The notes under the pieces: generated by a model
Told to the model about the DNA's origin: nothing
Database searches by the model: none
Seen by the model: the letters and a program-made list of their open reading frames with translations, nothing else
Translations under genes and position numbers: made by a program
Part shown: positions 6,905 to 39,733 of the stretch, in pieces
Numbering within the stretch: the stretch's first letter is position 1
Layout: each line of letters starts with the position of its first letter
DNA from: an uncultured Candidatus Saccharibacteria bacterium
GTDB taxonomy: Bacteria; Patescibacteriota; Saccharimonadia; Saccharimonadales; Saccharimonadaceae
Direction: 5' to 3'
Assembly: GCA_947425085.1 (NCBI GenBank)
Contig: CANDYV010000004.1
Span: 1-40,105 of the forward strand
Length of the DNA stretch: 40,105 nucleotides

Positions 6905-8098
6905 ATGTCTAAAAAATGGGAAGAACGACAAGTTAGCCTCGGCGGCGCAATCATCACCGGCGCAGTCACCTTAATCATCGGGCTCTTTATCGGCATCAAT
7001 TGGAATAATATCTCCTCAACTTTCTTACCTTGTCTCGGCGTCAAAACGACAACTGCAAACGACTGGTCCGCTCTGGACGAAGTCTACTCAACCCTCGTCC
7101 AAAATTATGACGGCGAGGTCAGCAAAGAAGAAATCATTGAAGGTGCGAAAAAGGGAATTGCCGCCGCCGTAGGCGACGTTTATACCGCCTACATGACGCC
7201 GGAAGAAGCTAAAGAATACGAAGCCTCTCTCCATGGCGACGTCGGCGCCGGCATCGGTATCGAAATGGCGCTCCGCGACGGCTACGTCCGTGTCCTCCGC
7301 ACCCTTCCCGACAACCCCGCCGGCAAAGCTGGCATAAAAGCTGGCGACATCATCTATAAGATTGACGGCGAAGAAGTCTACGCCGAAGGCTCCGATGTGA
7401 TTGCCTCGAAGCTACGTGGAGCCGCCGGAACTACGGTCAAACTTACTGTCGTCCGCGATGGCGAAGAAAAATCCTTTGAGCTTACTCGCGAGACTATCAA
7501 CAATGTCTCCGCCTACGCCACTTACGACGGCTCGACCGCCATCATTACCGTCACTCGTTTCGATAGCAACACCGGCACTCTTGTCCAGAAGATTGTAGCT
7601 GACGAATTCCCGAAACATAATGTCAAGAAAGTCATCCTCGATCTCCGCAACAACGGCGGCGGATATGTCTCCGCTGCGAAAGACCTTCTCTCCCTCTGGG
7701 TTGACGGAGACGTCGTCCTCGTTCAAAAAACGAATGGTATCACCCACGACACGACTTACGCCAACCGCGGCCAGGCGAAACTCGCCGACATCCCGACCGT
7801 CGTCCTCGTCAACGGCAGCACCGCTTCCGCCTCCGAAATTGTCGCCGGCGCGCTCAAAGATTACAAAAAAGCCACTATTCTCGGCGAAACCACCTTCGGC
7901 AAAGGCGTCGTCCAAACTCTCTTCGACCTCTCGAAAGGCAGCCTCCTCAAAGTCACTACCGCCCGCTGGTACACCCCGAACGGCTCCAGCATTAACGGCG
8001 AAGGCATCACCCCAGACGTCGAAGTTGAACTAACTTACGATGATACCAACATGGGTCGCGACCCCCAGCTCGACGCCGCCAAGAAACTCGAATTGTGA
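6905..8098 (+). CDS. S41-family C-terminal processing protease with PDZ domain
   Basis: PDZ region (GIEMALRDGYVRVLRTLPDNPAGKAGIKAGDIIYKIDG), catalytic VNGSTASASEIVAGALKDYKKATILGETTFGKGVVQ. Confidence 0.92.
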   Translation: MSKKWEERQVSLGGAIITGAVTLIIGLFIGINWNNISSTFLPCLGVKTTTANDWSALDEVYSTLVQNYDGEVSKEEIIEGAKKGIAAAVGDVYTAYMTPEEAKEYEASLHGDVGAGIGIEMALRDGYVRVLRTLPDNPAGKAGIKAGDIIYKIDGEEVYAEGSDVIASKLRGAAGTTVKLTVVRDGEEKSFELTRETINNVSAYATYDGSTAIITVTRFDSNTGTLVQKIVADEFPKHNVKKVILDLRNNGGGYVSAAKDLLSLWVDGDVVLVQKTNGITHDTTYANRGQAKLADIPTVVLVNGSTASASEIVAGALKDYKKATILGETTFGKGVVQTLFDLSKGSLLKVTTARWYTPNGSSINGEGITPDVEVELTYDDTNMGRDPQLDAAKKLEL

Positions 8099-8206
8099 TA
8101 TAATAAAAATATGAACTGCGCGAAGTATCTATACAAAAGATTTTAATCTTTTGGTGATACGAGCCGCAGCATAATTCCATTATATCTATGATATAATGGA
8201 ATTATG
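8099..8206 (+). promoter_or_regulatory. Riboswitch-like element, copy 1: promoter, three-stem domain and start-codon hairpin upstream of glutaredoxin
   Basis: TATAAT 8099-8104. Stems CTGCG 8116-8120/CGCAG 8165-8169, GTATC 8125-8129/GATAC 8156-8160, CAAAAGAT 8134-8141/ATCTTTTG 8146-8153. Hairpin CATAATTCCATTATAT-CTATG-ATATAATGGAATTATG 8170-8206. Confidence 0.75.
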
Positions 8207-8470
8207 ATCAAAGTATACACCACCAAAACTTGTATTTATTGCCACGCCCTTATGGACTGGCTGGAGCAACAGGGAATTAAATACCAGGAAATTGACGCAA
8301 CCACCATGCCTGGCATCACCGCCGTTCCTGTCACCGAAATTAACGGCGAACGCATCATCGGTTTCGATCGCGCCGCCATTAAACGCGCGCTCGCCGAAGC
8401 TAACGCGGAAACCGAGGATGCCGACGACGAAAGTACTAACAGCCAGGACCAAGAAGGCGCCGCAGCCTAA
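8204..8470 (+). CDS. Glutaredoxin-like thioredoxin-fold protein
   Basis: MIKVYTTKTCIYCHALMDWLEQQGIKYQEIDAT with CxxC redox site and TAVPVTEINGERIIGFD. Confidence 0.88.
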   Translation: MIKVYTTKTCIYCHALMDWLEQQGIKYQEIDATTMPGITAVPVTEINGERIIGFDRAAIKRALAEANAETEDADDESTNSQDQEGAAA

Positions 8471-10994: not shown

Positions 10995-11217
10995 CACGGC
11001 CCTCCTTTTGATTGGTTTATGAACGCCCGAACGAAGCAGTCTAATATACAAAAAGACGCCGCAAGGGCGTTCAACAAACTAATCTGCAAGTATTAGAAAC
11101 AAACAGTAAGTCTGAACCTTACGGCGTCATTTCACTAGTTGTTTCTAATTTTTGCACTTGTCCCATAAAAAGACACTTGCAGTTTTGATAATTAATTTGT
11201 TGAACACTTTCATTATA
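10995..11217 (-). promoter_or_regulatory. Structured 5' leader and promoter of FISUMP gene 1
   Basis: Minus-strand TATAAT (11212-11217); leader shares conserved blocks and paired segments with the leader of FISUMP gene 2. Confidence 0.75.
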
Positions 11218-34000: not shown

Positions 34001-34109
34001 TATAATATATATAATGAGGCATACGAAATGTCTATACAAGGGAGTTTACTCTCTTGGTGACATGAGTTATGCCATATTCTTATTATAACTATGTTATAAT
34101 AAGAATATG
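34001..34109 (+). promoter_or_regulatory. Riboswitch-like element, copy 2: promoter, three-stem domain and start-codon hairpin upstream of gltX
   Basis: TATAAT 34001-34006. Stems GGCATA 34018-34023/TATGCC 34068-34073, ATGTC 34028-34032/GACAT 34059-34063, CAAGGGAG 34037-34044/CTCTCTTG 34049-34056. Hairpin CATATTCTTATTATAA-CTATG-TTATAATAAGAATATG 34073-34109. Confidence 0.75.
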
Positions 34110-35558
34110 AAAACACGATTTGCTCCCAGCCCGACTGGCTATATTCATATTGGAAACGTCCGTAGTGCGATTTACCCTTATCTTTTAGCGCGCCAGCAAG
34201 ACGGTACTTTTATCCTCCGCATCGAGGATACTGACCAAGCTCGTTTCGTCGAAGGAGCAACTGAACTTATCGAAGACACTTTGAAATGGCTCGGTCTCGA
34301 ATGGGATGAAGGCCCCGTTGTTGGCGGCCCCGCCGAACCATACTTCCAATCCCAGCGCGCCAACATCTATCGCGCTTGGGGCGAAAAACTCATCGCAAAA
34401 GGCCGCGCCTACGCCGACCCGACCGACTCCGAAACCATCCAAAAATATCGCGACGAATGTAACGCAAAGAAAGTCCCATATCTCTACCGTAATTTCCGCC
34501 CCGAAAATCCGCCCGAATGGAAGCCAGGCATCCCGCTCCGTTTCAAAGCTGACCCGAAGCCTCGCAAGTGGCACGACGAAGTCATGGGCGACCTCGAAGC
34601 TGGCCCCGAAGTCCAAGACGACATCATCCTCATCAAAGCCGACGGTATGCCGACCTACAACTTCGCTCACATCGTTGATGATGCCGAAATGGGCGTCACC
34701 CACGTCATGCGCGGCGTCGAGTATCTTTCCAGCACCCCGAACTACCTCGCCCTCTACGAAGCACTCGACCTTAAAGTCCCGAAGCTCGTTTCTCTTCCGC
34801 ACATCCTTGCCCCGACCGGCAACAAGAAACTCGGCAAGCGCGACGGCGCTAAATCCGCCACCGAATATCGTGCCGACGGCGTCCTTCCCGAAGCCATGCT
34901 AAACTATCTCGCCTGCCTCGGCTGGAACGACGGCACCGAACAGGAAATCTACACAAAGGACGAACTTATCAAAAACTTCTCCCTCGACAAGATTCAGAAC
35001 TCCGGCGCCCGCTACGACGAGACTAAGCTCCTCTGGATGAACGGCCAATGGATTCGCCGCATTGCCGACGAACAGGGAATTGACGCCCTCTACGCTCGCA
35101 CGATTACTGGCGATGGCTTCTGGCCTGAGTCCGCCGCGCCTTACGACGATGAATATAAGAAAAAAGTCCTCGCTATTATTTACGACCGCCTCAAAACTCT
35201 CGCCGACCTCCGCGACATGACGACTTATTTCTTCGAAAATCCAACCGTCGACCTCGAAATGATCACCGGCAATAAGTTCCTCAAAAAGTTCTCCGAAGAT
35301 GAACTTTCCGATATGCTCATGCTAACTTCTCGCAAACTCGAGGCCATCCAGGATTGGAATGCTGATAATCTTCAGACTGCCCTGAACGAATTGCTTGAAG
35401 AAACCGGCAAAAAGCCCGCCGAACTTTTCTCCGTCATCCGTATCGCACTTTCTTTCGCGCCCTTCAGCCCCGCCCTTCACCTCACCATGAACGTCCTCGG
35501 CAAAAATCTCACCCTCTCCCGCCTCCAGACCGCCGCTACCGCCCTCGAGAATGACTAG
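34107..35558 (+). CDS. gltX: Glutamyl-tRNA synthetase
   Basis: RFAPSPTGYIHIGNVRSAIYPYLLA, ILRIEDTDQARFVEGA, LGKRDGAKSATEYRADG. Confidence 0.95.
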   Translation: MKTRFAPSPTGYIHIGNVRSAIYPYLLARQQDGTFILRIEDTDQARFVEGATELIEDTLKWLGLEWDEGPVVGGPAEPYFQSQRANIYRAWGEKLIAKGRAYADPTDSETIQKYRDECNAKKVPYLYRNFRPENPPEWKPGIPLRFKADPKPRKWHDEVMGDLEAGPEVQDDIILIKADGMPTYNFAHIVDDAEMGVTHVMRGVEYLSSTPNYLALYEALDLKVPKLVSLPHILAPTGNKKLGKRDGAKSATEYRADGVLPEAMLNYLACLGWNDGTEQEIYTKDELIKNFSLDKIQNSGARYDETKLLWMNGQWIRRIADEQGIDALYARTITGDGFWPESAAPYDDEYKKKVLAIIYDRLKTLADLRDMTTYFFENPTVDLEMITGNKFLKKFSEDELSDMLMLTSRKLEAIQDWNADNLQTALNELLEETGKKPAELFSVIRIALSFAPFSPALHLTMNVLGKNLTLSRLQTAATALEND

Positions 35559-38136: not shown

Positions 38137-38242
38137 AAAACCTAGAAATTCCAGAAACCTTCAAGCTCTATCACCATTGTAGAGTTTTATTTTTCTCCAC
38201 CCCTGTTAGCCAATCCCCAAACTCTACAACCGTTGTAGAGTT

Positions 38243-39733
38243 TTACCGGGCGATACAACGGACAGACATACCATAATTCCTAGCATATGTATCGCCTAAC
38301 GGAGTAATAGTGGATGCACCGTTAAACGTCAAGTAATACGCAGTCGTACTGCTCGAAGCTTTCGGAGTAGAAGACCAGTAATATCCTTGGTCGCCAGCAC
38401 GAGCAAATAGCCAGCTGTTATTAGGTTCGACTTTACCACCCCTCACAAAATAATACGGAGAACTAGTTAATACGGCGACATTAGCACCCACAGAACCAGA
38501 GTTTATAAGTCCCTGCAAGCTACCGATACTCGTATCATTCGCTGTTGGCAATCTCCACCCCTTCGGGCAGATTGAATCGCTCGCCTGTCCAGAATAAATC
38601 TCACCACCAGTTCCAGCCGTCGCCGCATTCCAGGAGTAATGATTGCCCAAAATATAATGCGCATTAATATCCGCATTAGCGCTAGTAGGCGTCAAATATG
38701 CAGTAAATTGACTGGTGCAATTCGCTGCGCTATTTTTAGGGTATCCACAATCATTCGCTGTCGTCGGATTAGTGATTCGATAATTTCCCAAGTTCCAAGA
38801 ACGCGCCTGCATCCGGTCGTTCGTGATCGTCGAGCTAGTCGCACTCGTTGCTGTTGTATACCCAGGTGTCCAATTCGCAGTAACGTCTGAATCGCTCGGC
38901 GTCAACGCCTTCGATGTCGACAAATCAAGGTCTAAGTTCTGCGTCATCCAACATTTACCATCCGTCAATTTACCAACCCAATAGTATTTTCCATCGCGCG
39001 CGTCTTTCAGCTGCGCCGTATCGCCGCTTTTCGACGCCGCACAAACCGCCGTTGTCATGTCTTGCATGTTTGCCAACGACGTGAGACCAACTATCTCCAA
39101 CGGCGAAGACACCACACTCATCGTCACCGAATTCCGATAAGTTCCGGCCGGTTTATCTGCACCGATATTCGCCGCAAAGCTCAAAGCATAAGTCGTCGTC
39201 TCACTCGGGATACTTGTCGAAGCATTCGTATAAAGCGTTTCGCCCCGTCCCGCCGTCGAAATCGCCTTATATTGCGCATCATCCGCCACGGTATCCGTAT
39301 TTCGCGCCCAAGCATAGCCCCAGGTATTCGTCGTCATCTCGCCGTACTTCTTCGTTCCAGAAATCGGCGCAATCGTCTCCGTCCCGCCAACTCGCGTCAA
39401 ATTCGCACTACTACTCCCAACATAAACACTATATCCTCCCGAATTCTCCACGCTCACCGTCGCTTTCACTAACAATTTCGCCGACGCACCGGCCGTTGCT
39501 GACGGCGCCATCGATGCCGAGCCCTCCGTCGGACTAAAAGCAATATTCACCGTCGAAATTGTCGTCGCTTGCGGAGAAACTAAATCATCATAATTTTCAC
39601 TATTCTCAATAACTTCTTCCAGCGCACTCGCCCTACCTCCAATAAGTGGATTGACTAATAGAAATGCTAGTAGCAATAAACTTATACAGCTCGCACTCCC
39701 GGCGACATTAACTTTTCTTTGACCTCTTCGCAT
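38243..39733 (-). CDS. Secreted FISUMP-domain surface protein 2
   Basis: Paralog of gene 1: RGQRKVNVAGSASCISLLLLAFLLVNP and KDARDGKYYWVGKLTDGKCWMTQNLDLDL. RBS AAGGAGGG; ATG at 39733. Confidence 0.85.
   Translation of the reverse strand: MRRGQRKVNVAGSASCISLLLLAFLLVNPLIGGRASALEEVIENSENYDDLVSPQATTISTVNIAFSPTEGSASMAPSATAGASAKLLVKATVSVENSGGYSVYVGSSSANLTRVGGTETIAPISGTKKYGEMTTNTWGYAWARNTDTVADDAQYKAISTAGRGETLYTNASTSIPSETTTYALSFAANIGADKPAGTYRNSVTMSVVSSPLEIVGLTSLANMQDMTTAVCAASKSGDTAQLKDARDGKYYWVGKLTDGKCWMTQNLDLDLSTSKALTPSDSDVTANWTPGYTTATSATSSTITNDRMQARSWNLGNYRITNPTTANDCGYPKNSAANCTSQFTAYLTPTSANADINAHYILGNHYSWNAATAGTGGEIYSGQASDSICPKGWRLPTANDTSIGSLQGLINSGSVGANVAVLTSSPYYFVRGGKVEPNNSWLFARAGDQGYYWSSTPKASSSTTAYYLTFNGASTITPLGDTYARNYGMSVRCIAR

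Follow-up and report, generated by a model that had tools for sequence, protein, structure and literature searches.

Two copies of one hairpin module were found in the window (the whole stretch of DNA analysed, 40,105 bp, equal to all of contig C4 of genome G000, which comprises 717 kb in 45 contigs), at 8115-8170 before the glutaredoxin-like gene grx and at 34018-34073 before the glutamyl-tRNA synthetase gene gltX, respectively. They belong to a small and previously uncatalogued hairpin family, whose members seem to be jumping-gene-like inserts that bring a replacement promoter, and unlike an ordinary metabolite-sensing RNA switch. A non-autonomous mobile hairpin repeat of MITE/REP type, supplying such a promoter, is put forward as the best explanation, with about an even chance of being right.

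The modules and their putative palindromic promoters

The architecture described in the earlier note (TATAAT, 11 nt, P1, CGAA/GAGY, P2, TATA/GT, P3, TTTA loop) was present in both copies, and the exact motif CTATACAA-N-TTGGTGA occurred window-wide at just these two places (chance expectation 0.00). The MFE folds equalled the proposed structure for both copies, with z = -4.6 and -6.2 for the modules only and z = -9.4 and -8.5 when the following hairpin was included. As had been supposed, no named class was recognized: the Rfam gathering score was reached by no family at either window copy, relaxed Rfam scans gave nothing relevant, and a search with Rfam covariance models over 13 loci with copies gave no match above the gathering score. 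The features at the two sites are as follows.

6905-8098: ORF of an S41 peptidase upstream of the grx copy; its stop codon overlaps the left -10 box
8099..8104, + strand: -10 box TGTGATATAAT of the left (putatively old) promoter before the grx copy, from sequence
8111..8113, + strand: putative old start codon ATG of grx and left copy of the flanking triplet, from position and empty-site comparison
8114..8206, + strand: inserted unit at grx, i.e. module plus palindromic promoter ending in the new ATG, 93 bp TG-to-TG
8115..8170, + strand: P1-P2-P3 hairpin module at grx with loops CGAA/GAGC and TATA/GT, from the covariance models R1/R2/R3 (77-82 bits) and the fold
8170..8206, + strand: perfect 17-bp inverted repeat at grx, loop TAT
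8192-8197, + strand: -10 box of TATGATATAAT, which lies in the loop and 3' arm at grx; ATG of grx at 8204-8206
8204..8470, + strand: glutaredoxin-like gene grx (Pfam PF00462, 36.3 bits)
34001..34006, + strand: -10 box of the left promoter before the gltX copy, from sequence
34014..34016, + strand: left ATG at gltX, putative old start codon, judged from the analogous grx and tig sites, from sequence and geometry
34017..34109, + strand: inserted unit at gltX, 93 bp TG-to-TG
34018..34073, + strand: P1-P2-P3 hairpin module at gltX, from R1-R3 (71-83 bits) and the fold
34073..34109, + strand: perfect 17-bp inverted repeat at gltX, loop TAT
34095-34100, + strand: -10 box of TATGTTATAAT, which lies in the loop and 3' arm at gltX; ATG of gltX at 34107-34109
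34107..35558, + strand: gltX, glutamyl-tRNA synthetase (Pfam PF00749, PF19269)

The perfect 17-bp inverted repeat with a 3-nt loop that abuts each window module, and whose last three letters are the start codon, was overlooked in the earlier note. In both copies TATG(A/T)TATAAT is located in the loop and 3' arm, six nt before the ATG. The window contained two perfect 17-bp/3-nt palindromes, both at the modules, and a mean of 0.0 palindromes with arms of at least 12 was obtained from 40 Markov-1 sequences of the window's length. Other inverted repeats of the window, at 38163-38243 (25 nt, 80%) and 11085-11156 (23 nt, 83%), are unrelated to the module. A similar layout, with an extended -10 and then ATG within about 6-8 nt, was seen at genes of module-free relatives, and the motif at grx and gltX is read as a predicted leaderless promoter, the genes themselves looking leaderless. 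Since the extended -10 and the ATG are located in the palindrome 3' of the module, the module is predicted to lie upstream of the transcription start and outside the leaderless mRNA. The assignment of the module to a 5' leader of grx or gltX is not supported by this predicted arrangement, and in genomes G254 and G384 the element abuts a -35 box.

Distribution and fold of the family

Of 199 family genomes, 44 contained the loose pattern TATACAA-N-TTGGTGA, but mostly no more often than expected by chance, as similar numbers of control hits showed, and covariance models were therefore used instead. The two-sequence model (R1), proposed earlier as a check, yielded more copies in genomes G273, G262 and G254. 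A model of nine sequences (R2) added G384, so that copies were recorded in 5 of 174 genus genomes, with 13 copies in the four genomes beyond G000. With a model of 15 sequences (R3), the same five carriers were obtained among 394 family genomes; they hold 15 full copies, and a further copy is truncated by the end of a G384 contig. Weak copies may be missed in these counts, as 32 (R2 scan) and 14 (R3 scan) first-look candidates were scored per genome. The full copies numbered two (G000), three (G273), one (G262), three (G254) and six (G384). Weak R1 matches in G106, G171, G285 and G250 were discarded, as were weak R2 matches (E 0.001-0.007) in G239, G001, G352, G376 and G380; the G239 match was P3 alone, and the other four were without palindrome and promoter and stood behind tRNA or repeat sequences. 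At loci L107 (G380) and L109 (G001), at about 1440-1600, a 58-nt hairpin follows a tRNA gene 3' end and is itself followed by a repeat of the same tRNA 3' end, like an integration scar.

When the genome contigs of 84,980 species were scanned for the pattern, nine stretches were obtained, three of which were real and were located on Saccharibacteria contigs equal to those of G273 and G262. Viral contigs gave zero hits, and no match was obtained in phages with the grx copy as query or in plasmids with the gltX copy as query. Among open-licence PMC papers, none was found that describes such an element in Saccharibacteria or Patescibacteria.

The structured element with covarying stems claimed in the earlier note is borne out by the further homologs, which keep the fold with compensating stem changes. 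In the 15-copy model alignment, 92.9% of cells were paired versus 77.8% in shuffles, double-change cells numbered 47 versus 14.9 in shuffles (slid controls at most 9), and both-sided changes occurred in 13 of 18 pairs, these values being read with the caveat that the copies were found with models of this structure and the alignment was fitted to the same structure. A nine-sequence MAFFT alignment gave 96.9% paired and 37 versus 12.2 double-change cells. Six of the 13 copies beyond the window were also folded singly and gave the same two stem-loops, with z from -3.0 to -8.7. Wobble pairs were counted as G-U 9 versus A-C 2 in the nine better copies and as G-T 12 versus A-C 11 over 14 distinct rows; by the latter count, the strand is not decided by wobble pairs.

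The promoter motif was located 3' of the module in 15 of 15 copies, and the orientation of the module towards the promoter was likewise constant (15/15). Two forms were distinguished. In the ATG form (six copies: grx and gltX of G000; gltX, valS and tig of G273; gltX of G262), the palindrome is perfect over 16-18 pairs and its last letters are the ATG of the gene. In the TTG form (nine copies, three in G254 and six in G384), its end is the TTG of TTGAC, a -35 box with a -10-like box behind it, and most of these palindromes are shorter or imperfect. At gltX of G254, the palindrome and the last part of the module remain and nothing more. The gltX palindromes of four genomes differ in their spacer letters, yet all are perfect, which may result from selection, palindrome correction or copying at insertion. 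When the palindromic-promoter pattern was sought without regard to the module, it was found in 10 of 174 genus genomes, six of them non-carriers; in G349 and G258 it was directly before tig, and the other four look coincidental. At these two loci (L169 of G349 and L170 of G258, about 1480-1530), the palindromic promoter is directly before the tig start codon without a module and with a different hairpin upstream; this may be an alternative solution, or the two phenomena may be related.

The downstream genes differ between genomes, those identified being gltX (targeted in three genomes), grx, valS and tig (trigger factor), and no common metabolite was found among the genes behind the copies. 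Six ORFs downstream of TTG-type copies gave one weak family match. Behind the copy at L106 (G384 C7) lies an ORF that matches the CdiA_C domain weakly (27.3 bits, with a cut-off of 26.6).

Empty sites and possible mobility

The position of the unit was read from comparison with empty sites in relatives, by which it is located directly behind the old start codon or a TTG. The tig site is empty in G000, the sister of G273, with upstream stop, one promoter and ATG; in G273 it is filled, with the same upstream gene end, promoter and ATG, then the unit, a second promoter and ATG. Empty gltX sites were found in G279, G272, G275 and G285, and an empty grx site in G273. Compared with the latter, the left grx promoter agrees at 18 of 21 nt and the right copy at 13 of 21, and by its position the left promoter is probably the ancestral one. 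At tig of G273, the spacer TAGAGA of the right promoter resembles the G279 empty site, which makes it uncertain which promoter copy at tig is the original. The TG-to-TG length was 83-95 bp in 14 of 15 copies, the exception being G384C62 without a left TG. The flanking triplets were equal on the left and right in 13 of 15 copies (ATG/ATG 6, TTG/TTG 7) and differed in G254C8 and G384C62; a triplet on both sides might also arise because the left triplet pairs with an arm of the palindrome.

In a tree built from the trigger-factor sequences of 10 genomes, with weak support at most forks, the carriers are not grouped as one clade: their distribution needs 4 changes, no improvement on shuffled labels. 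Two G384 copies, from different loci with different surroundings, share 99% identity over 128 bp; as their promoter half is common to many G384 loci, a segmental or other duplication is possible. Many loci of this genome (L145-L152, L155) have promoter type TTGACTTTTTACCCAATCTGTGNTACAATGATAG and a conserved leader starting TATAAGCAC. Y1 (HUH) transposase genes were present in three of five carriers versus 0 of 12 tested non-carriers (hypergeometric 0.015), a small post hoc count that is confounded since two of the three Y1-positive carriers have genomes of at least 1.1 Mb. The Y1 gene of G273 is without stops, that of G384 has an in-frame stop, and G262 has two fragments. No module was found beside the Y1 genes of the three carriers in 12,960 bases (best full-length match E = 4); a single P3-like stem alone was present in L180 (E = 0.0024). 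Upstream of the tnpA start at L179 (G273), an inverted repeat GTATCTGGCAT / ATGCCAGATAC extends over the start of the IS200-like transposase gene and could hide its start codon.

With the precise empty sites, the triplet duplications and the recent duplicate, the element looks like an inserted repeat, and the mobile-repeat reading draws from the sequence its structure, covariation, empty sites, two-sided triplet, copy-number variation and fixed orientation. Transposition would be the cause. The unit would be made up of the 56-nt hairpin, with its two conserved internal loops, and of a second stem-loop, the palindrome, whose sequence varies. It would be inserted directly 3' of (A/T)TG, which is a leaderless start codon or the TTG within a -35 box, and this triplet would then flank it on both sides. 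The folded hairpin would be recognized by a single-strand-specific enzyme. The right palindrome would re-create the displaced part (extended -10 and ATG, or the TTG of the -35), and the gene would thus still be expressed from the new promoter, presumably with leaderless translation, the old promoter being stranded upstream. A target-copying version is quite improbable: the 3' end of P1, joined behind (A/T)TG, would prime fold-back synthesis with the neighbouring promoter as template, by which an inverted copy of it would be written, followed by a direct one, and each insertion would carry a custom palindromic duplicate of the displaced promoter. If this were true, the host gene would never be silenced by the insertion.

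Known systems, rival readings and significance

IS200/IS605 ends carry subterminal hairpins that are recognized as single-stranded DNA, and these elements insert 3' of a short target without known target duplication. The unit is like such ends and their miniature derivatives in its two hairpins and its position 3' of a short target; unlike them, its palindrome sequence varies per site, and no transposase with ends of this type was found. MITE-like repeats (Correia/NEMIS, ERIC, RUP, RPE) are described as intergenic, non-coding and stem-loop forming sequences of less than 200 bp with filled and empty sites, some with putative promoters and affecting neighbouring transcripts (PMC2229807). The present element is similarly short and non-coding and occurs at unrelated loci with filled and empty orthologous sites (tig, gltX, grx). 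It differs in the flanking triplet (A/T)TG instead of TA, in having two different stem-loops with no unit-spanning terminal inverted repeat seen, in few copies, in the fixed orientation to the promoter and in a second palindrome that contains or abuts the promoter. REP sequences are imperfect palindromes with conserved mismatches behind a short conserved sequence, recognized as single-stranded DNA by a Y1 enzyme (PMC8266576). The likeness to REP with TnpA-REP (RAYT) lies in an imperfect hairpin behind a short sequence and possibly in the Y1 genes of three of the five carriers. The differences are the longer module (56 nt) with two internal loops, no GTAG and a left flank (A/T)TG in 13 of 15 copies, one to six full copies per carrier versus hundreds, and no module beside any Y1 gene found. 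With riboswitches and leader RNAs, conserved internal loops and covarying stems are shared; unlike them, the module is upstream of a predicted leaderless start, has unrelated targets and has no Rfam match.

The main rival, possible though doubtful, is a cis-regulatory RNA (riboswitch, protein-binding leader or attenuator), in which a transcript of the left promoter would start just before P1, the module would sense a ligand or protein, and the AUG-burying 17-bp hairpin would be the expression platform. The covariation (92.9% versus 77.8% paired, 47 versus 14.9 double-change cells), the left TATAAT in five of six ATG-type copies, the targets gltX (three genomes), valS, tig and grx, and the wobbles of the nine better copies (G-U 9 versus A-C 2) agree with it, whereas by the wobbles over all 14 distinct rows (G-T 12 versus A-C 11) neither strand is favoured. 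The gltX comparison of G000 and G273 bears on it too: 91 of 208 four-fold sites differ (44%) and 117 are identical, and in the module 21 of 38 stem positions and 16 of 18 non-stem positions are identical with pairing kept. The stems thus appear to have diverged at about the neutral rate with loops conserved, which is compatible with a regulatory role. If there was one shared insertion, stems drifting neutrally under pairing constraint with loops held would point to selection or to the element still being in use. The same numbers would be expected if the two genomes had received separate insertions from different source copies. The location of the promoter motif downstream of the module in all 15 copies argues against this rival, as do the nine TTG-type copies, which are without a clear left promoter and have the palindrome far from start codons; mutually exclusive pairing with P1 is not evident, and a terminator-like hairpin is located between the upstream gene and the module in G384C28 and G254C8. 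From the unrelated target genes, the lack of a common metabolite and the features of an inserted repeat, the riboswitch claim of the earlier note does not follow; of its interpretation, the conserved covarying element with homologs and no Rfam family stands, and the riboswitch and the 5' leader are not supported.

If the hairpin and palindrome instead acted as cruciforms or single-stranded DNA folds bound by a regulator or RNA polymerase, which is unlikely, the placement of all 15 copies immediately before the promoter or over it, the strand symmetry of wobbles over all copies and the perfect AT-rich palindromes over the -10 in six copies would be accounted for; the internal loops differ on their two sides, so that there is no simple symmetric operator, and carriage by 5 of 174 genus genomes is unusual for a general regulator. 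A guide-type RNA, with P1-P3 as 5' scaffold and the first palindrome arm as a guide of ~17 nt to the promoter for a Cas12/TnpB-like repressor, is very improbable. The 5' arm is perfectly complementary to the promoter in 6 of 6 ATG-type copies despite spacer differences among gltX orthologs, and A follows TG at the target in 15 of 15, but the arms of G384 copies are short or imperfect and the A is partly due to TTGAC and common second codons. A short leaderless upstream ORF (e.g. MNCAKYLYKRF) as leader peptide, suggested by an ATG at the same place and a frame open through CTA TAC in the six ATG-type copies, was rejected as scarcely credible: all six use the codons CTA and TAC with no synonymous change, the constant geometry is by itself enough to fix the frame, and an ATG at this place is missing from the nine TTG-type copies. 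The mobile repeat accounts for the patchy presence, the different downstream genes per genome, the non-clade carriers, the empty sites, the matching triplets and the near-constant unit length, and is consistent with the 99% G384 pair and the Y1 genes (3/5 versus 0/12). It is weakened by palindrome arms that vary from copy to copy, unlike a fixed transposon end, by stem changes at gltX that are compensated in situ between the sister genomes, which a selected function would predict, by copy numbers (1-6 full) far below those typical of REP, by an orientation to promoters that is never reversed, and by the lack of a module adjoining Y1 genes, and the 99% pair may be a segmental duplication.

The genomes of Saccharibacteria are tiny, and few regulatory or mobile systems have been described in them. 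If a repeat enters at start codons and -35 boxes of core genes (gltX, valS, tig) and regenerates the promoter, this would be a new way for a mobile element to stay harmless, and promoter turnover would have a natural source in it. Should the structural constraint at gltX be due to regulation, the family would represent a new class of cis-regulatory element in the phylum.
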